30,317 bases of DNA from a virus, in the IMG/VR virus record IMGVR_UViG_3300030331_001353, positions 1-30,317 of that record. One strand, written 5' to 3'. Shown here piece after piece: positions 16,888 to 27,310 of this stretch. The notes under the pieces are model-generated. The model was given only the letters and a program-made list of their open reading frames with translations. It did no database searches and was not told the origin of the DNA. Both the position numbers and the translations under genes were made by a program. The number at the start of each line of letters is the position of its first letter. The stretch's first letter is position 1.

Positions 16888-19317
16888 TCAGATTAGTTGT
16901 GATAGGTTTACTGATTCCTTTGGTTGCTCCTGTAGTTCTTGCCTTTTGCCTTTTCTCTGAGAAATAAGCTTACTCTGCTCGATAGCTTGCTTCTCTACCC
17001 TATCGTCTTTTCTGTCTTCTTTTAGAACCTCAAGCTTTTCTTTAAATTCTTGTTCTTCAGTTCTAAACCCAAGTGTAGCCTGAGCTCTAATCATCTCAAT
17101 TTCCTTTCGATACTCGTGCTTGACTTGCTCCATCTGCATTTCGATCTGAGCTTTCATCTGCATTGTTTGTGCTTCAAGCTGACTTTGCAGTTGCAGTTCT
17201 TGCATTCTTCCTTGAGAAGCTGATTGAGCTGCTGCCTGAGCTTGTTCAGCCTGGACCCTTGCGTTTTCAGCTGCTTGCTTTTGCATTCTTTCGATTCTCT
17301 TTTTTCTTCTGAGAACCAACAGTCTCTCTGCTTGCGTAATATCTTTAATAGACCTGATAGCAATTGCATCTTCTAAATCAATTTCTTTTTGAGCAAGAGA
17401 AGCTTGAATACTTTGCTCAAGATAAATCTTATCTTGATCCTCCATTTCTTTTACAACCCTTACTCCAAAGTTGTACATAGGCAGATCGCTGAACGAAGAC
17501 AGAATGTCCATGTTCGTTTTTCCAATAGCGTTGGTATACGTTTTAAACAATACAGACTCAAGTGGAATAATCTGCAAGCACTTTACAATGTCTTCGCATG
17601 TCTTTTTGAAAAGAATCATGGCTGCATTGGTAATGTCGTAAATCGCATTGTTACCTGCAGCAATTGCATTCTGCTGCACCCCAACAAGAGTGTCACCCTT
17701 TGGGGTTGAAGCATCCATCATTTCATTAATACCTGTGGTGTCACGAATCATTCTTAGATAATGATTGTAAAGACCAACAAGCTCATTGATGTTTCGAATG
17801 CTATTACCGATCTCTCTAACTGGAGGGTTTTGGAAACCACCCTCTGGGTTCTTACTTCTGTAATAGAAAACACCTGTCTGCTCGTAGATGTCGTGGAGGT
17901 CTAGAGGCTGAAGTTCCCCACCGTTGCCAAGCTGTACATTTTCAAGACCTTCAATGTCAATAATCAAACCGTCAGGTTTAGCCTTTGCAATAGCTTGCTG
18001 GATCTTAAGGTGCGTAAGCTGAAGCATATCAGCAAAGCCTATGCAGCTGTTGACCATAGACTTAGGAATCATACGACGCATATTCGTGCTAACCGCAGAG
18101 TAAGAAAGCCTACACCTACTCAAGTCGTGCATATTCCTAGGAATGTTTGTTTTCATTCCGTAGTTAAAAATATGCTTAGTTCCAGTAATGTAAACGCCAC
18201 CGTAAACCATAGAGACCTCCATCTTGTGAGGCTTTCTTTCGAAAACGCCACCAGCTCTTTCTTTGTATTTAAAGCCCTGGTGATAGAAGCCAGTGTTTCC
18301 GTGACGGTTGTCTTTTTCTTCGTAGTGTATGCAGTCGACAGACATAAACTCGAACTCAAGAACTTCGATCATGTAATCGTCGTACTCGTACTTCATCCTG
18401 TTCGACGTGCTGTCAAAGTATCCTTTGTTTCCTGAGCCGTATTGATACTTGGTTGACGTTTTTGCCAGCTCTTCGTAATCCTTTTCCTCTAACTGATCCC
18501 CAGCAAGTCTCTTAAGTTCTGAGATTGATATTCTTTTCATGTGACCCGCATACATCAAGTCATTCATACCAGGGTCTTCGGTATAGCTGTGGATGAAGTC
18601 AATGGGATCAACATAGTCAACCTTAATGCCGTAGTTAGGGTCATTGCTTCTCTTTACCACAGACATCCCAAGAGCAGTCAAGTCATTGACAGATCTCCTG
18701 TACGTATTGTCATTGAAATCATTCCAAGACAGCGTGAGATTTGTTGCGACTTGAGCCGCCATCTCTGCATCTGTTTTGATATTGGTGTCAATGAGAATCT
18801 CTGCCTCCTCTAAAGTTTCTGGCAACTTATCTGGGTCTTGATCAAGAACGAGACCACCAGTCATCTGCTTAAGAGACTGAAGCTTTTCCCTCATCTTTAC
18901 TTGATTGCGAATCCTGTTTTTCTCATTATTCTTTTCAGAAGAAGAGATAGGGTCGATTGCCTCAAGATTTGGGTATGGGTTTCTTGACAGTATCTTGTTA
19001 GAAACTATCTTTGCAAACTTAGGAAGGATTGGAACTGGAGTGTAGTCCAGGTTTACTAGAGACCCATCAGCATTGTTTGGGTCCAAAGAATTCAACAGCT
19101 GCTTGTAAATGGTAGTATCTTGTGTACCATTTGCATACTCTCTGTTCTTTTCAAAGATCTTGTTCCTGCGCCTGTATAGCGATTCCGAATTAGCAAAATC
19201 TCCCCATTGATTTTCAATTGCCTTTGCGTACTTCAGCCCGTATTCCTTTGAGGCTTTTACCTCCTGTTTTGCTAGGGGATCAGGGAATCCACGGGTGTTT
19301 TTGTTTTTGCTATACAT
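16888..19317 (-). CDS. Portal protein
   Basis: This 809-aa protein follows TerL and forms the DNA entry ring at the capsid vertex. It shows a portal-like N-terminal clip/wing layout (NLDYTPVPILPKFAKIVSNK) and the helical core motif GDTLVGVQQNAIAAGNNAIY near residues 540-560. The C-terminal roughly 170 residues form a long, Gln/Glu/Lys-rich helical segment (AAENARVQAEQAQAAAQSAS, then MKAQIEMQMEQVKHEYRKEI), comparable to a barrel or extended C-terminal coiled coil. The length matches the roughly 800-aa portals of crAss-like phages, longer than many siphovirus portals. It is the first full gene of a transcription unit, preceded by a TATATTTG promoter and a 5-codon open reading frame whose stop (TAA) directly abuts its ATG. 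Confidence 0.82.
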   Translation of the reverse strand: MYSKNKNTRGFPDPLAKQEVKASKEYGLKYAKAIENQWGDFANSESLYRRRNKIFEKNREYANGTQDTTIYKQLLNSLDPNNADGSLVNLDYTPVPILPKFAKIVSNKILSRNPYPNLEAIDPISSSEKNNEKNRIRNQVKMREKLQSLKQMTGGLVLDQDPDKLPETLEEAEILIDTNIKTDAEMAAQVATNLTLSWNDFNDNTYRRSVNDLTALGMSVVKRSNDPNYGIKVDYVDPIDFIHSYTEDPGMNDLMYAGHMKRISISELKRLAGDQLEEKDYEELAKTSTKYQYGSGNKGYFDSTSNRMKYEYDDYMIEVLEFEFMSVDCIHYEEKDNRHGNTGFYHQGFKYKERAGGVFERKPHKMEVSMVYGGVYITGTKHIFNYGMKTNIPRNMHDLSRCRLSYSAVSTNMRRMIPKSMVNSCIGFADMLQLTHLKIQQAIAKAKPDGLIIDIEGLENVQLGNGGELQPLDLHDIYEQTGVFYYRSKNPEGGFQNPPVREIGNSIRNINELVGLYNHYLRMIRDTTGINEMMDASTPKGDTLVGVQQNAIAAGNNAIYDITNAAMILFKKTCEDIVKCLQIIPLESVLFKTYTNAIGKTNMDILSSFSDLPMYNFGVRVVKEMEDQDKIYLEQSIQASLAQKEIDLEDAIAIRSIKDITQAERLLVLRRKKRIERMQKQAAENARVQAEQAQAAAQSASQGRMQELQLQSQLEAQTMQMKAQIEMQMEQVKHEYRKEIEMIRAQATLGFRTEEQEFKEKLEVLKEDRKDDRVEKQAIEQSKLISQRKGKRQELQEQPKESVNLSQLI

Positions 19318-19357: not shown

Positions 19358-21487
19358 CTATTCTGACTGAATTGGCTTGTATCTCCTGAAAAACTTTCGT
19401 TCAGAAAAGTCAGACTTCTTTTTTTTCTTGTTGACTTTTTGTGCGGCAAGAAGACAAAGTCCAGAACTTATTGTCAAGTCAAACTTTGTGCGATTGTCAA
19501 TCTTGAATCCAATCCAATCCTCAAGGGTTTCGTTAAAGTACATGTTTCCAGACTCACCTGTTTCTGAATTGAATCCAACGTGGTCATGGATGTAAGATTC
19601 TATTGCGTGAGCGTGAGCCTGAATAACCTCTTGTGAGTTTGATGGTATTCCCTTTGTTTTAACATTGACCTTTGCATTTGGAGAGCTTAGGTGCCGTGGC
19701 CTACCCATTAAGTATCCATCGTAACCTCTTGATTCAAAGTATCTTGCAATGCCATACTTATTGTTTTCAATGAGGATAGGGTATCCGTAATAGAACGCAG
19801 CCATAAGTACATCTTCATAAAAGATCTTAGCCAAAGGCGGACGGGACGCATACTCCAATACAAACATGTTTGATGGGTGCTCCATATGAAACTTGTTGTA
19901 CAGGTGTAGCGCTCCTTTCGACCCCCGTCCATCGACGGTGGCGTCAAGGTCGTAGGAGTCAACCCCGCCTACCCCCAGCTCTGCATTAGGTGCGACCAGC
20001 TTTCCCTGATCAAATTTCTTTTTGTTTCTTAACTCCTTTGGAGGCAACCATGAGATATTAAACTTACCCCTTGGGTCTGGAGAGAAAACAACTTCACTAT
20101 CCTGCACCCCATTTTTCCAAATGAAGTTGCCAGTCACCACTGGGTTTGGAAACAACTCTTCGTTGTGATCCATCTGTTCATAGATCTTACCAACATTAAA
20201 TATGCTGCCATCTATGCTGTCCCTAAAAGCTTCATCCTGACTGAATGGAAACTGCCTAATAACCTCGTTAAGTTCTGAGGCATCATGCTTCAAGCTATCT
20301 CTTTCGTTTTTTAAGTAAACCTTCGCCCCCTGATATATCATGTCTCCGTCTACACCCTCTACGGCAGACTCAGGCTGATCTATAACGGGGTTTCCATAAA
20401 CATCAAAGAATCCCTCAAGAGATTCATATGCTGGAATAAACAGTCTGTAAAGACCTGTTCTCGTTCTTCCGTTTGCGTTGCGCTCAAAAGGATCGGAGTC
20501 TCTCCACAGCTCTTTGTATTCCTTGCCCCCTTTGTCCATGGGATTTACGGTGCTGCCTACCAAGGCCTTACCGACAATCTTCCTACCCACAATAAGGCAG
20601 GTTCTTTGAATCCTCCAAGCGTCTCTAATGTCTGTGGGCTTTTCCCACTTGCCCGCCTCGTCAAGGTATAAGATATGTAGTTTTTCCCCGTCGTATGCGT
20701 TGTTGGTGGTGTTCTTCCAGTTTATTACCGTATTAAGAGCTTCGCCCGTCTGCGTAGTCTTATTCTTCTTCGTGATTCTCTTAGAGGGCTCGCGAAAAGC
20801 CAGCTCCATGCGTGGATTGGTCGTTCCATCTTGAATGGGTTTAAAGAAGAAAGGGTAGTGACGAAACATCTGCACCACCTTCTTCATGAATATATTTTCT
20901 TGAGCGTCCTTACCAGTCTTTGACTGGATGCCAAGAAGTTTATCCTTGACTTGTGTCGCTTCATCTAGAAGTACAGACGAGCAGATATTTGTATACCCAC
21001 TACGTCTGCACTTTGTATAAAGCTGCCCAATGCATCTTGGGTCTGCTTCACACGCTGCTAAATGTACGAAAATATCTCTTTGGAATGAAAGAAAGCTCGG
21101 ATAACCTATGTCCATCCGAGTCCACTGAAGCATCATGTAGTGCCTGCCCGTAATATATGTAGGGACACCATTATTGAAAAACCAAAAGCCCTCACGCCTA
21201 CGGCGAAACTCTTCTTCGATATACGGAGAAAACTTTTGTCTGAACTCCCTTGGCATCTCTGCCCACTCATCCATAGACCTAATCCTAGACAGCTCGTCTG
21301 GCATAGGAGCCCTTTCCCACATTTGCATGCGGTTTGACTTGCCATGTCCATGAATTTTCTTTTTGGAAGGGACAGCGGGAAGAACAATGACCAGCCCACC
21401 AAGTTCAACAACTTCACCCTCCGTACCGTTGGGGCAAATCTTAATCCCTGGATCATTGTATTCATCTATGTCTACAAGAACGCTCAT
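19358..21487 (-). CDS. terL: Terminase large subunit (ATPase-nuclease)
   Basis: This 709-aa packaging motor protein drives genome translocation and cuts concatemers. In the N-terminal ATPase domain, the deviant Walker A is CRRSGYT (160-166), Walker B is LHILYLDEAG with D276 and E277, and a coupling motif GSTVNP lies near 311-316. In the C-terminal RNase H-like nuclease domain I see D510 in GVDSYDLD, E574 in ILIENN and D670 in KFDLTISSG, the three expected metal ligands. The length agrees with TerL proteins of crAss-like phages. Its ATG overlaps the stop of a 43-aa basic gene (ATGA), and both lie downstream of tRNA-Arg, probably on one transcript. A small terminase subunit is not recognisable beside it. 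Confidence 0.92.
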   Translation of the reverse strand: MSVLVDIDEYNDPGIKICPNGTEGEVVELGGLVIVLPAVPSKKKIHGHGKSNRMQMWERAPMPDELSRIRSMDEWAEMPREFRQKFSPYIEEEFRRRREGFWFFNNGVPTYITGRHYMMLQWTRMDIGYPSFLSFQRDIFVHLAACEADPRCIGQLYTKCRRSGYTNICSSVLLDEATQVKDKLLGIQSKTGKDAQENIFMKKVVQMFRHYPFFFKPIQDGTTNPRMELAFREPSKRITKKNKTTQTGEALNTVINWKNTTNNAYDGEKLHILYLDEAGKWEKPTDIRDAWRIQRTCLIVGRKIVGKALVGSTVNPMDKGGKEYKELWRDSDPFERNANGRTRTGLYRLFIPAYESLEGFFDVYGNPVIDQPESAVEGVDGDMIYQGAKVYLKNERDSLKHDASELNEVIRQFPFSQDEAFRDSIDGSIFNVGKIYEQMDHNEELFPNPVVTGNFIWKNGVQDSEVVFSPDPRGKFNISWLPPKELRNKKKFDQGKLVAPNAELGVGGVDSYDLDATVDGRGSKGALHLYNKFHMEHPSNMFVLEYASRPPLAKIFYEDVLMAAFYYGYPILIENNKYGIARYFESRGYDGYLMGRPRHLSSPNAKVNVKTKGIPSNSQEVIQAHAHAIESYIHDHVGFNSETGESGNMYFNETLEDWIGFKIDNRTKFDLTISSGLCLLAAQKVNKKKKKSDFSERKFFRRYKPIQSE

Positions 21488-21615
21488 CGGCCCTGAGAGG
21501 CATAAGGCTTCTTGTAGCTCTTAGAGTTTTTGTTCTTAGAGCTCTTTGTCTTAGCGTGAACTCCTTTACGACGAACCCTTTTCTTCTGGTAGGTTGAAAC
21601 TACTTTCTTTGCCAT
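21484..21615 (-). CDS. 43-aa highly basic protein upstream of TerL
   Basis: This short gene was found by reading the gap above TerL. It encodes 43 aa with no acidic residue and about 18 Lys/Arg (STYQKKRVRRKGVHAKTKSS, then NKNSKSYKKPYASQGR). The RxGVHAKTKxSxNKxSKxYKKxYxxQGR pattern is one I associate with very small conserved proteins encoded near terminases in Bacteroidota phages. The stop overlaps the TerL ATG (ATGA), so the two are translationally coupled, and the start sits in the A/T-rich leader shared with the scaffold gene. Binding of DNA or RNA is likely from charge. A packaging-accessory role is inference from position. Confidence 0.65.
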   Translation of the reverse strand: MAKKVVSTYQKKRVRRKGVHAKTKSSKNKNSKSYKKPYASQGR

Positions 21616-21630
21616 TTAAATTAAATTATG

Positions 21631-21704
21631 TACCCCTGTCAGGACTCGAACCTGAAACCTGCGCATTAGAAGTGCGCTGCTCTATCCTGTTGAGCTACAA
21701 GGGC
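21631..21704 (-). tRNA. tRNA-Arg (anticodon TCT)
   Basis: Minus strand, 74 nt with the discriminator base. The 7-bp acceptor (GCCCTTG with CAGGGGT, two G-U pairs) is complete, as is the D arm AGCTC...GAGC. The anticodon loop is in GCGCACTTCTAATGCGC with anticodon TCT, reading AGA codons. The T arm is TCAGG-TTCGAGT-CCTGA. No CCA is encoded. It lies between the divergent promoter and the 43-aa gene and is probably co-transcribed with the packaging genes. Confidence 0.92.
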
Positions 21705-21726
21705 GGCCGACATAAAATGAATCATT

Positions 21727-21745
21727 CAAAGATAAGGTATCTTTG
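21727..21745. promoter_or_regulatory. Palindromic bidirectional promoter, tRNA/TerL versus cargo operon
   Basis: The sequence CAAAGATAAGGTATCTTTG is a perfect inverted repeat of 8-bp arms around AGG. Each arm is a TAnnTTTG -7 element: the plus copy (21738-21745) is followed by TCCC and the ATG at 21750, and the minus copy (21734-21727) points to the tRNA-Arg start about 22 nt away. The palindrome could equally serve as an operator. No clear -33 element is visible on either side. Confidence 0.72.
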
Positions 21746-21749
21746 TCCC

Positions 21750-23651
21750 ATGTACAAAAAACTATTCTTTATGGTGTTCGCATACACCAGCATTTTACAC
21801 GCTCAAGAGCCATGCTCTATGTTAATTCCAAAAGTTAAAACTATGGGGATCAACAGGTTGCAGTTAGACCTTGATGACATCGAAACCGTTACACTACCCA
21901 TCGTGTTTCATGTGGCTCACACTGGTCTTACATCAGAGACCAACATTTCTGACGAGCAAATACTTTCTCAGCTTGATGTACTAAACGAAGAGTTTGAAGA
22001 TAGCAAAATTCAGTTTTGTTTGGCTGTGCGCGACCCTGATGGAAACCCAACCAACGGGATTACAAGAACAGACATGAGCTCAAACAACGAGTACATGATC
22101 AACGGAATCAGCAACGGTCAAGGTATAGGGGCTGACCAGCTTCAGGTTAAGGTTGAGTCTGGGTGCTGGAATCCTGACGAGTACATCAACTACTACATTG
22201 TTTCTGAAATCAACGGCAATGACGGGGGCAACGGTATTCAAGGCTTTGCATACCTAGGTCCAACCAATGACTGCCGAGACGGTGTAGTTTGTTTGTACAA
22301 CGTAACAGGAACAGTGGGTACTCTTAAGCCAGGCCGTGAACTTGGATTCACTGGTGTACATGAGGTTGGTCACCACCTTTCACTCTATCATACCTTCTCC
22401 AATAGCAACGATTGTGTTGAAACAAACTGTGAAACTCAGGGAGACCAAGTGTGCGACACACCGCCAACTCAGTCTAACACTGGGTGTGACAACCCTGTTT
22501 GCCCTGATGCCCTGACAGAGAACTTCATGGACTATACAGTTGAGTCTTGCAAAGAAAGCTTTACTGTTGGTCAGTCAGAGCGCATGCACGAGCAGATTCA
22601 AACTCTCAGGACTGAGCTCGTAGACAACCTGTCTTGCGTTCCTGTTGTAGACTACGACGTAACTCCACTAACAGCACTGTATCAAGATACATGGTGCACC
22701 CCATACCAGGACATCTGGATTGATGTCGTGAATCAAGGAGTTCTTCCTATTGACCTCGTAGAGGTTCAGCTATACTGCAATGGAAACGAATATATAGAGT
22801 ATATCTACGACATTGTTCCTGGTGTACAGTCTGTTCTTTTTGAAGAGGTGTTTGTTGATGGAGCTCAGCAGTTCGAAGTGCAGACTATCAGCTCTCAAGA
22901 TCAGTATGCTGACAATGACTATGCATGGTGGCCCATATCTACCGATGACGGAGATTTGATGGAAATCTTAGTAGATACAGATGTTTGGGCTAATGAGACT
23001 GACTGGGTGATATACGACTCTTTTGGAGAGGAAGTAATAGGTGATGGGAACTATCCTTTTCAGTCAGGTCCATTTGCCTATGAGGTTTGCGTTTTCAACG
23101 GATGCTATGAAGTGGTTATAACAGACATAAACGGAGATGGCTTCTGTCAAATTGATTTTAATAATGATGGAGTATGCGATATTGGGTCAGACGGGATTAC
23201 AGCAACCATCGGTGCTGACACCGTATTTACCACGGGTTACGGCGCTCAATTCTCTGTATGGGAGGAGACCTTTTGTATTGACATCGACCCATGCCCCTTA
23301 GACTTTGATGGCAACGGTACCGTGGGTAACGGGGATATTATTTACATGGTGGGTGAGTGGGGCTGTCAGGGAGATTGCGAAACAGATCCGAACAATGACG
23401 GGGTAGTAAATGTTTTTGACTTGCTGTATGTTCTTACTGAAATCGGAGATGAATGCCCAGTAGAGCAAGACTTGTCAATTGGAATGCTAAAAGATCTTAC
23501 CGTAGCATCATCTAATGGCATTTTCGGAGGGGGTCCACCTCAAATTTACGACATTACTGGCAGGCAAGTTAGAGGGCCAGTCCATAATCTTGCAACTGGT
23601 GTATACATTCTCAAATGGGGTAGGGTGACTAAGAAAGTATTTGTGCAATGA
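21750..23651 (+). CDS. Secreted M43-type metalloprotease with T9SS type A sorting domain
   Basis: From ATG 21750 this is 633 aa. Residues 1-18 form a signal peptide (MYKKLFFMVFAYTSILHAQE, cleavage after HA). The protease domain has H204-E205-x-x-H208-x5-H214 in HEVGHHLSLYH and a Met-turn NFMDY at 259-262, the zinc and Met-turn layout of pappalysin/cytophagalysin (M43) enzymes. The usual glycine at position 211 is serine. Cys-rich loops surround it. A beta region (about 300-450), calcium-type loops (DINGDGF) and a dockerin-like pair (DFDGNGTVGNGD at about 518-529, DPNNDGVVNVFD at about 546-557) follow. The last 35 residues (IYDITGRQV, then GVYILKWGRVTKKVFV) are a T9SS type A sorting domain. 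It would be exported to the cell surface or released by the host T9SS. An earlier in-frame start is rejected because it crosses the tRNA. Its stop overlaps the next gene (ATGA). Confidence 0.87.
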   Translation: MYKKLFFMVFAYTSILHAQEPCSMLIPKVKTMGINRLQLDLDDIETVTLPIVFHVAHTGLTSETNISDEQILSQLDVLNEEFEDSKIQFCLAVRDPDGNPTNGITRTDMSSNNEYMINGISNGQGIGADQLQVKVESGCWNPDEYINYYIVSEINGNDGGNGIQGFAYLGPTNDCRDGVVCLYNVTGTVGTLKPGRELGFTGVHEVGHHLSLYHTFSNSNDCVETNCETQGDQVCDTPPTQSNTGCDNPVCPDALTENFMDYTVESCKESFTVGQSERMHEQIQTLRTELVDNLSCVPVVDYDVTPLTALYQDTWCTPYQDIWIDVVNQGVLPIDLVEVQLYCNGNEYIEYIYDIVPGVQSVLFEEVFVDGAQQFEVQTISSQDQYADNDYAWWPISTDDGDLMEILVDTDVWANETDWVIYDSFGEEVIGDGNYPFQSGPFAYEVCVFNGCYEVVITDINGDGFCQIDFNNDGVCDIGSDGITATIGADTVFTTGYGAQFSVWEETFCIDIDPCPLDFDGNGTVGNGDIIYMVGEWGCQGDCETDPNNDGVVNVFDLLYVLTEIGDECPVEQDLSIGMLKDLTVASSNGIFGGGPPQIYDITGRQVRGPVHNLATGVYILKWGRVTKKVFVQ

Positions 23652-24664
23652 AAAAGTTTATATGGTTTTTAATTCCACTGTTGAGTTGGGGTCAGTGCGA
23701 CATAGAGATTATTGGATTCAATCCTATCTCCACGGACATGACAATTGCTGTCAACGGAGGGTACTGCGGGACCCCCTCAGACTCGATTGGAGAGTTCTTG
23801 CTTGCCCTATCTTTTACTCCGCCTATAGAAGATATACAAGATGATTTTCCTTGTTTCTATGAGGACGGCTGGGCTAAATTAATATTCCCCTTGGACTTTC
23901 CTGGATTCGACATAGGCGAGGGTGAAGACGACATACTTCAGACGGGCGACACTGTTACTTTTAATCTTGCAGAGACGCCTTGGGCTGGATCTGGATCTGC
24001 AGACTGCTGGATTGATGTAATGCAAAGCGCAGCGTACTTCATGGAGTGCGTTATAATAACTGTGTGGCAGATAAATGACAGCGAGGACATAACAGGCGGC
24101 AGCGGACTCGGTGGGTTCCCGTATCCAGATGAAGATGTATGGAACAACTGGATCATGTGGTCTCTAAATGGTGCTTGTTCGCCACCACCACCTCCAATAG
24201 TGTACGGATGCACAGACATGTTCGCATACAACTACAACGGAACCGCTACGATAAATGACGGCAGCTGCGTGTATCAGGGGTGTTTAGATCCTGACGCGCT
24301 CAACTACTGTGAGGAATGCACTATAGAAGGTGACTGCATATATCCTCCAGATGACAACGACTTAGACATTGATTGTAACGACCCATCTATTTACGTTCCA
24401 AATGCGTTTACGCCAAACAATGATGGTATCAACGATATCTGGAGACCCATAACAAAGCAGGATTGTTGGTGGAAGTGGGAGTGCCGCGTGTATAACAGAT
24501 GGGGCACTTTAGTTTGGATAAGCTACGACCCTAACGACAAGTGGATAGGGGAAAAGTTAGAGTATTTTGTTCCTGACGGAGTTTACACATGGGTTATTCA
24601 GGGGTCAACTTGGGGGAGTCAAAAAGTTGTGAGCATGGCTGGCAACGTATCTATATTTAGATAG
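23648..24664 (+). CDS. Secreted protein with T9SS type B (gliding-motility-type) C-terminal domain
   Basis: This 338-aa protein begins with a signal peptide (MKKFIWFLIPLLSWGQC, probable cleavage after SWG). Residues about 20-180 are a Trp/Asp/Gly-rich beta region with several Cys. Residues 187-231 hold a YGCTDMFAYNYNGTATINDG segment, then SCVYQGCLDPDALNYCEECT. This is the GCTDxxAxNYNxxAtxnDGSC module common in surface proteins of marine Bacteroidota. Residues 249-338 are a type B sorting domain: VPNAFTPNNDGINDIWRP, then RVYNRWGTLVW, then DGVYTWVIQG. It would leave by the T9SS along with the protease, with which it shares an overlapping ATGA junction. Its own activity is unknown; adhesion or partner binding is possible. 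Confidence 0.85.
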   Translation: MKKFIWFLIPLLSWGQCDIEIIGFNPISTDMTIAVNGGYCGTPSDSIGEFLLALSFTPPIEDIQDDFPCFYEDGWAKLIFPLDFPGFDIGEGEDDILQTGDTVTFNLAETPWAGSGSADCWIDVMQSAAYFMECVIITVWQINDSEDITGGSGLGGFPYPDEDVWNNWIMWSLNGACSPPPPPIVYGCTDMFAYNYNGTATINDGSCVYQGCLDPDALNYCEECTIEGDCIYPPDDNDLDIDCNDPSIYVPNAFTPNNDGINDIWRPITKQDCWWKWECRVYNRWGTLVWISYDPNDKWIGEKLEYFVPDGVYTWVIQGSTWGSQKVVSMAGNVSIFR

Positions 24665-24741
24665 TCCGCAAGGTGGGACTTGAACCCACATGTGACCAGT
24701 TACCCTTTCTACAAGGTATAAGCTTGAGGGGATACTCGCGG
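24665..24741 (-). other. tRNA-like element, degenerate
   Basis: On the minus strand this 77-nt element has a full 7-bp acceptor stem (CCGCGAG with CTTGCGG, one G-U) and a perfect T arm (GTGGG-TTCAAGT-CCCAC). The 43 nt between them do not fold into normal D and anticodon arms. A TTGTAGA heptamer could read as a Tyr (GTA) loop but its flanks do not pair. No CCA is encoded. It abuts the HNH stop codon on one side and the cargo stop codon on the other. I call it a tRNA relic or a tRNA-like structure, not a functional tRNA. Confidence 0.6.
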
Positions 24742-26574: not shown

Positions 26575-26874
26575 TTAATTCATTGATATGCCAAGATCAT
26601 TTAGCATGTCGTTAAGATCATCGCTATCGTCTGGGCCATATGATTCTCTAATAAATTCTAGTATGTCTTCAAGCGTATCTGAATTTGGTATGTTGTAGCC
26701 ATAGATGGCTTTAAGGTGGTCCTCACCATCTTCTTCTATTACCACACCACACAGGCTAAGTGATATGATAGAGTCTTCATAACCATACTCTTTGACAGTG
26801 CTTTCTATTTTCATCTGCAGTTTCTGAATTTCTAAGAGGAATGATGTAAGGTTATCTTTGTCTTCAAAATTCAT
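26575..26874 (-). CDS. Small acidic protein, unknown
   Basis: This 99-aa acidic protein is the first gene of the accessory operon. It has an N-terminal helix (NLTSFLLEIQKLQMKIESTV), a strand pair around ISLSLCGVVIEEDGEDHLKA, and an Asp/Glu-rich C-terminus (SYGPDDSDDLNDMLNDLGIS). It could be an inhibitor or DNA mimic judging by charge, but that is only a guess. Its start codon lies 4 bp from the start of a divergent plus-strand gene, so its promoter must lie inside that gene. A TACCTTTG at 26943-26936 on the minus strand is a candidate. Confidence 0.55.
   Translation of the reverse strand: MNFEDKDNLTSFLLEIQKLQMKIESTVKEYGYEDSIISLSLCGVVIEEDGEDHLKAIYGYNIPNSDTLEDILEFIRESYGPDDSDDLNDMLNDLGISMN
26853..26860 (+). 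promoter_or_regulatory. Bacteroidota -7 element inside the divergent gene
   Basis: Plus strand TATCTTTG, preceded by T as in the 29981 and 21727 copies, lies inside the first codons of the minus-strand acidic gene. The plus-strand ATG is at 26879, giving a leader of about 13 nt if transcription starts 5-7 nt past the element. Confidence 0.6.
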
Positions 26875-26878
26875 TTCA

Positions 26879-27310
26879 ATGCCAAAAAGTTCTGTTTCAC
26901 GAAAGAAGATGTTTCGAGAGTTCTCGAAGCTAAATCAAAGGTACATAAAAACAAACTACCTAAAGTACCTCAGGGCTACGTTCAGCAGCTTTTGCACTAA
27001 GAAAGATATCTTTGAAAAAGAACTGCACTTTATGCTGTGGGCATACGACCTAGAATTCTTTACAATCAAACACGCATCAAAGGATTACGGAGCCACAGAA
27101 AAAAAAATTGGGGATAGATACATATACCCGCTTATGAAAGAAGGGTATATATACAAGCACTTTGATAAGCTGACCCCAAGTAAAACAAGAGAAGATCACC
27201 TGTTTAGAAGTGAAACAAAATTTAATTACAGGGTAAGATATGCGCTTACGCAAAAGGCCCGCTTGTTAGTGCAGGCCTTTTACAGGGAGTTAGAGACAAA
27301 TCGTTTATGA
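26879..27310 (+). CDS. Basic protein, possible winged-helix transcription regulator
   Basis: From ATG 26879 this encodes 143 aa (a TTG-started extension to 26858 is rejected as it reads through the promoter). The protein is basic with N-terminal helices (SRKKMFREFSKLNQRYIKTN). A helix-turn-helix-like stretch reads ELHFMLWAYDLEFFTIKHAS, then GATEKKIGDRYIYPLMKEGY and IYKHFDKLTPS. That last stretch looks like the recognition helix and wing of a MarR/winged-helix domain. It then ends in a helix, YALTQKARLLVQAFYRELE. It is one of the few plus-strand genes and diverges from the accessory operon with 4 bp between start codons, an arrangement common for regulators. The stop overlaps the end of the convergent lectin-like gene. 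The regulator role is inference. Confidence 0.55.
   Translation: MPKSSVSRKKMFREFSKLNQRYIKTNYLKYLRATFSSFCTKKDIFEKELHFMLWAYDLEFFTIKHASKDYGATEKKIGDRYIYPLMKEGYIYKHFDKLTPSKTREDHLFRSETKFNYRVRYALTQKARLLVQAFYRELETNRL
26936..26943 (-). promoter_or_regulatory. Candidate -7 element for accessory operon
   Basis: Minus strand TACCTTTG fits TAnnTTTG and lies inside the plus-strand gene, 61 nt upstream of the minus-strand ATG at 26874. The leader would be longer than at other promoters here, so it may be a chance match. Confidence 0.35.
27252..27281. terminator. Possible bidirectional hairpin in convergent gene ends
   Basis: AAAAGGCC and GGCCTTTT flank a 14-nt loop near the 3' end of the plus-strand gene. 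The A and T runs on both sides would allow termination in either direction. It lies inside the coding sequence and the loop is long, so confidence is low. Confidence 0.3.

Follow-up and report, generated by a model that had tools for sequence, protein, structure and literature searches.

Back-to-back predicted promoter elements between an inverted protease cassette and the packaging genes of a Bacteroidota phage

What is the role of a short, nearly palindromic word that lies between the start of a protease cassette and, facing the other way, a tRNA-Arg gene followed by the packaging genes of a phage? The question is raised by an IMG/VR virus record that is 30,317 bases long (the window, analysed over its whole length), whose genes lie mostly on the minus strand and whose terminase is 42% identical to those of the elemo phages of Flavobacterium and 49% to that of MW202828, deposited as Podoviridae sp. 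The word CAAAGATAAGGTATCTTTG is indeed present at positions 21727-21745 (Table 1). The initial annotation had described it as a perfect 19-bp palindrome, which is true of the two 8-bp arms, CAAAGATA and TATCTTTG, as they are exact reverse complements, but not of the asymmetric AGG between them, from which the 3 mismatches in the reverse-complement self-match of the 19-mer derive. It had also placed two TAnnTTTG elements on opposite strands around a 3-nt spacer, with the protease cassette beginning 4 nt away, and both points stand: the plus arm ends 4 nt before the protease ATG at 21750, and the minus arm lies 22 nt from tRNA-Arg.

The 19-bp word and its chance expectation

Taken by itself, the symmetry of the word is uninformative, since chance alone would give 0.85 repeats with 8-bp arms and a 3-nt loop per window, and 12 inverted repeats with 8-bp arms and loops of 0-6 nt, some of them overlapping, are listed in this one. 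What is rare is the arrangement of the two elements: an outward-facing pair of TAnnTTTG elements no more than 5 nt apart is expected 0.085 times by chance in the window, where TAnnTTTG as such is not over-represented (28 found, 24 expected). We ruled out the palindrome as a signal in its own right, given that 8+3+8 repeats occur at chance level and that the symmetry is not conserved in relatives; a multi-copy operator, given that the window holds no second copy of the dyad and 14 relative records only same-site copies; a terminator, given that the 19-mer has no T tail and no terminator-like hairpin was reported there; and, by reasoning, an invertible promoter, as 8-bp arms around 3 nt are too close together to flank one.

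Table 1. Coordinates of the promoter pair and of the surrounding features in the window.
Feature	Position	Strand	Basis or remark
Back-to-back -7 pair, dyad CAAAGATA-AGG-TATCTTTG	21727..21745	none	Sequence scan, chance estimate, same-site relatives with CAAATATAAGGTATCTTTG
Plus-arm -7 element TATCTTTG, protease cassette	21738..21745	+	4 nt to ATG; top plus-strand TAnnTTTG on profile
Minus-arm -7 element TATCTTTG, tRNA-Arg/packaging genes	21734->21727	-	Profile rank 8/60,562; single -7 before tRNA-Arg in 29/49 relatives
TTTG, -33-like, minus promoter, within first protease codons	21755..21758	-	Weak; 0.66 expected by chance
Predicted +1 of cargo transcript, A of protease ATG (leaderless)	21750	+	Predicted from Flavobacteria -7 geometry
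Predicted +1 of tRNA-Arg/packaging transcript	21722	-	Predicted from the same geometry
tRNA-Arg (TCT)	21630..21704	-	Kept upstream of terminase
Small conserved ORF between tRNA-Arg and terminase	21487..21612	-	Conservation in relatives
Terminase large subunit	19358..21487	-	phrog_6681, E 6e-209
Portal protein	16888..19317	-	phrog_6547, E 7e-192
Cargo gene 1, M43-type metalloprotease (HEVGHHLSLYH)	21750..23651	+	PF05572, E 1.3e-15; 18-member alignment
Cargo gene 2, C-terminal CHU_C / type IX type-B sorting domain	23648..24664	+	PF13585, E 6e-14
Conserved tRNA-like element, far cassette junction	24666..24741	-	Comparison with relatives

Use of the -7 element and predicted transcription starts

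Promoters of the Bacteroidota sigma-A factor (sigma-ABfr) carry a -33 TTTG and a -7 TAnnTTTG element (F. johnsoniae, PMC6847099; F. psychrophilum, PMC9723704), and both arms match this -7 as well as its revised form, TAHHTTTG. The element spans -12 to -5 in F. johnsoniae, 4-5 nt from the start (PMC6847099), and the same positions in F. psychrophilum (PMC9723704). In 80 loci fetched by their terminase, we counted the distances between TAnnTTTG and ORF starts and compared them with control motifs: TAnnTTTG clusters sharply at 4-5 nt (30 hits) and more broadly at 12-26 nt (636 genes), and the controls peak at neither distance. About 30 genes in L002-L081 thus have the element 4-5 nt before their start codon, where it would lie for a leaderless mRNA. 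On a promoter profile built from 53 non-redundant sites of relatives, with the same-site L003 and L004 left out, the two arms come 7th-8th among 60,562 positions and the remaining top sites lie mostly immediately before gene starts; as the profile positives come from related phages, the enrichment counts are not independent.

Applied to the window, this geometry predicts sharp starts at 21750 and 21722, 28 bp apart. The plus arm stands as far from the ATG (4 nt) as the -7 does from the start in F. johnsoniae, and together with the published geometry this would make the protease mRNA essentially leaderless. By the counts above, the uncultured Bacteroidota phage family as a whole often sets its -7 at this leaderless distance, and in Flavobacteria studied to date a minority of mRNAs are leaderless (5.5% in F. 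psychrophilum, PMC9723704). Should transcription begin further upstream, a longer protease would be possible from an in-frame ATG at 21717, the reading frame being open upstream to 21594. On the minus side, the TTTG-N20 spacing of the arm makes it the sole TTTG-N18-21-TAnnTTTG in the window, with 0.66 expected by chance; no TTTG precedes the plus arm at -33, this element is not conserved across the phage set, and -33 is weak in F. johnsoniae (PMC6847099).

The cassette and its junction in related phages

Cargo gene 2 reaches 34.4 bits against TIGR04131, slightly below the 35-bit cut-off, and a simple scan found no intrinsic terminator at the cassette end, where the tRNA-like element follows directly. 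Annotated phage records gave one weak partial match to the cassette, and in annotated relatives the gene preceding the terminase is co-directional with it and overlaps it. Pairs of an M43 metalloprotease and a CHU_C-tagged protein recur in a few dozen viral contigs (L082-L108, L228-L272), at varied sites and facing either way; several cassettes elsewhere have a single -7 of their own, commonly as TAnnTTTG-N7-ATG. The best cellular relatives found for the protease come from Bacteroidota MAGs, mostly Flavobacteriales, at ∼30-43%.

Four relatives (L003, L004, L251 and L379) carry the word CAAATATAAGGTATCTTTG at the same place, and behind it, in the three whose contigs are long enough (L004, L251, L379), lies the cassette, inverted as in the window. 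As these three are 99.7-100% identical over the 377 nt around the word, and L003 has the same word and visible flanks, we count the four as one lineage; the layout with the cassette comes from two independent lineages only, this one and the window, among contigs that are fragments and relatives whose ORF calls are mechanical. The words of the two lineages agree at 18/19 positions, although their 60-nt flanks align no better than shuffles, and the one base that differs falls in the 'nn' left free by the -7 consensus. The perfect symmetry of the arms in the window is therefore a one-base accident: same-site relatives do not share it and have kept both -7 elements, the AAGG centre, the gap of 3 and the divergent layout, so that the significance first attached to the palindrome as such is not supported. 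In the same-site lineage, the minus -7 reads TATATTTG and precedes by 4 nt the GTG of a small basic gene missing from the window, and the plus -7 lies 17 nt from the protease ATG.

A single -7 is found within 330 nt in 29 of 49 other tRNA-Arg-bearing relatives, and the back-to-back pair in none of them, against its presence at gap 3 in all inverted same-site cassettes (Fisher p 8e-4, with two lineages counted). Likewise, there is no pair in L252-L254, where the cassette precedes the terminase co-directionally, and in some empty sites (L048, L029, L075) the tRNA-like element lies ∼4 nt from tRNA-Arg with no -7. The initial annotation had proposed outward promoters, one to tRNA-Arg and packaging and one to the protease cassette, and had suggested cargo-free relatives as a check: cargo-free or co-directional ones keep at most the minus arm, the plus arm is present wherever a relative has the cassette inverted at this site, and both the sequence and the relatives support the proposal. 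The coupling or switching between virion and cargo expression and the regulator site that it also proposed would be hypothetical.

The window and L251 have the same order of HNH gene, tRNA-like element, CHU_C and M43 genes (inverted), promoter pair, tRNA-Arg, small ORF and terminase; L251 has in addition the small basic gene ahead of tRNA-Arg. In both, the tRNA-like element is directly adjacent to the stop codon of the CHU_C gene, and both insertion junctions are in common. Their terminases are 88% identical and their proteases fall into different strongly supported clades, that of the window with L082/L083 and that of L251 with L249/L272/L252, for which an exchange of cargo alleles beside a retained promoter pair would be the simplest account. 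The tRNA-like element itself is 76 nt long and 98% conserved among 14 phages (window 24666-24741, minus strand; L002:58-133, L048:3051-3126, L075:4716-4791, and others). It was missed by ARAGORN and scores slightly below threshold with the Rfam tRNA model in L048 (27.1 against 29 bits). Acceptor and T arms are present, as is an anticodon-like loop, CTTATAC (UAU, Ile), a D arm is apparently missing, and columns 13 and 39 covary (C-G / T-A). In relatives, the corresponding region has a canonical tRNA-Ile(TAT).

Beyond this site, CAAATATAAG[GC]TATCTTTG occurs in six viral stretches only, all in the same phage family and all between a small basic gene and a divergent partner: the four of the same-site lineage, and L182 and L219 (terminase 43-47%), where the dyad lies 4 nt from the small basic gene and 6 nt from an ORF unrelated to the cargo. 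In MW202828, CAAAAATA-CT-TAAATTTG separates an HNH gene from a gene that carries the annotation repressor, so that the family reuses outward -7 pairs with varied partners and centres. A scan of viral contigs with the pattern CAAAGATANNNTATNTTTG was too loose to be informative; its commonest divergent class, CAAAAATAAGTTATCTTTG, lies in unrelated prophages between an XRE/S24-like repressor ORF and a small ORF, at 20/38 nt from them in L111, L113 and ∼25 similar loci, where it is possibly an operator. In the L182 and L219 records (G015:15347-18364, G016:42209-45226), the terminase matches fall in two blocks of a single 1072-aa frame, which looks like a large in-frame insert (intein-like).

Promoter pair, operator or coincidence

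We favour, with a probability of roughly three in four, a back-to-back pair of ordinary promoters, of which one serves the secreted-protease cargo and the other tRNA-Arg with the terminase and packaging genes. The observed basis of this reading is the sequence, the synteny, the positional enrichment of the -7 element and the presence or absence of the pair across relatives. Two housekeeping-type Bacteroidota promoters, with their -7 elements 3 bp apart, would then stand at the edge of a cargo that sits inverted in a hot spot between the HNH/tRNA-like block and tRNA-Arg. Because of this inversion, transcripts of upstream genes would meet the terminase only after antisense passage of the 3 kb cargo; the minus promoter would restart transcription beyond it, at a place where we infer the need for a new promoter, and drive the tRNA-Arg and terminase/packaging operon, and from the plus promoter both cargo genes, for the M43 protease and the CHU_C protein, would be transcribed into an mRNA that is essentially leaderless. 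With the predicted starts so close, two polymerases would hardly fit both promoters simultaneously, and cargo and packaging outputs probably compete through polymerase exclusion. The arrangement suggests that an inverted cargo block may fit into a phage packaging operon without silencing it when a promoter pair is fused at the junction.

The dyad could also be an operator, at which a dimeric phage regulator blocks both promoters or shifts their balance. A candidate is the MarR-like ORF at 26879-27310, which is conserved across the phage family and whose structural model resembles MarR, MepR and SlyA (Z up to 10.7 over ∼93 residues). Almost all of its top structural neighbours belong to the MarR family of regulators, but at Foldseek E-values of 0.58 or worse and for a low-confidence model (mean pLDDT 63.7), and assignment to MarR from sequence failed, with no Pfam and no relevant PDB match. 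The ORF, on the plus strand in a region of minus-strand genes, has its ATG at 4 nt from the start codon of gene 26575-26874, which diverges from it; a motif common to the plus arm and to its promoter (TAAGGTTATCTTTGTC) is not retained in L251 and was discarded. The spacing of 3 and the centre AAG[GC] are maintained across a large divergence; in L182/L219, the ORF that begins 6 nt from the dyad CAAATATAAGCTATCTTTG, opposite the small basic gene, is weakly similar to ORF 26879-27310 (26%, E 0.001), and its homologue in MW202828, the 'repressor' gene, adjoins a back-to-back -7 pair within a longer TGTCACAAA/TTTGTGACA repeat. The single copy of the dyad in the window, its restriction to the same site in the 14 relative records, its absence upstream of the MarR-like gene itself, the presence of that gene in relatives without the dyad and the loss of symmetry in CAAATATAAGGTATCTTTG make such an operator unlikely in our view. 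A two-way switch, in which a MarR-like regulator or polymerase competition alone selects either the protease cargo or the packaging operon and the module is kept while cargo alleles swap, appears rather improbable.

We are quite doubtful that the minus arm alone is a promoter, with the plus arm a chance TATCTTTG and the cargo expressed by read-through or from a start further upstream. The missing -33 of the plus arm, the open frame upstream of the protease and several cassettes in other phages that have no -7 just upstream and follow close behind an upstream ORF speak for this account, but read-through would have no obvious co-directional source, because the flanking upstream genes lie on the other strand, and the plus arm is the top plus-strand TAnnTTTG of the window by profile, stands at the family-preferred 4-nt gap and recurs in the same-site relatives at a different ATG distance. 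That the 19-mer is palindromic by chance and serves neither direction seems very improbable. Such repeats are common, and the exact window 19-mer is also found in unrelated viral contigs (L192/L387, L384, L385, L388), which we take as background; the near-identity of the same-site words between unalignable flanks, and the confinement of CAAATATAAG[GC]TATCTTTG to one family and one kind of gene neighbourhood, argue against coincidence.

Phage morons are cargo genes that have their own promoter and frequently lie inverted within a late operon. The cassette resembles them in that its accessory genes run in the opposite orientation, have a predicted promoter of their own and are present or absent among relatives; it differs in that a simple scan found no terminator and in that the cargo promoter would be fused to that of an essential operon. 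MarR-family regulators and their operators (MarR, MepR, SlyA) involve a short palindrome over divergent promoters, and here too a short palindrome overlies predicted divergent promoters and a conserved phage ORF has a predicted MarR-like fold, but the candidate regulator is encoded 5 kb away in the window, the dyad symmetry is not conserved and binding would be hypothetical. As in Bacteroidota sigma-A promoters, both arms match the -7, the 4-nt ATG gap fits the measured -7-to-start distance and a weak -33 is usual; unlike in the usual ones, the elements face outward 3 bp apart and one transcript is predicted to be leaderless. In bidirectional promoters of E. coli and other prokaryotes, pseudo-symmetric DNA gives divergent transcription and one polymerase excludes the other; those of E. 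coli share a -10 and have starts mostly 18 bp apart, with distances of 10 and 23 bp frequent as well (Warman et al., PMC12825309; PMC10268837). The window shares with this Warman/Grainger type the pseudo-symmetric DNA, the predicted divergent transcription and, as we would expect, polymerase exclusion, and departs from it in having two separate -7 elements with 3 bp between them and predicted starts 28 bp apart.
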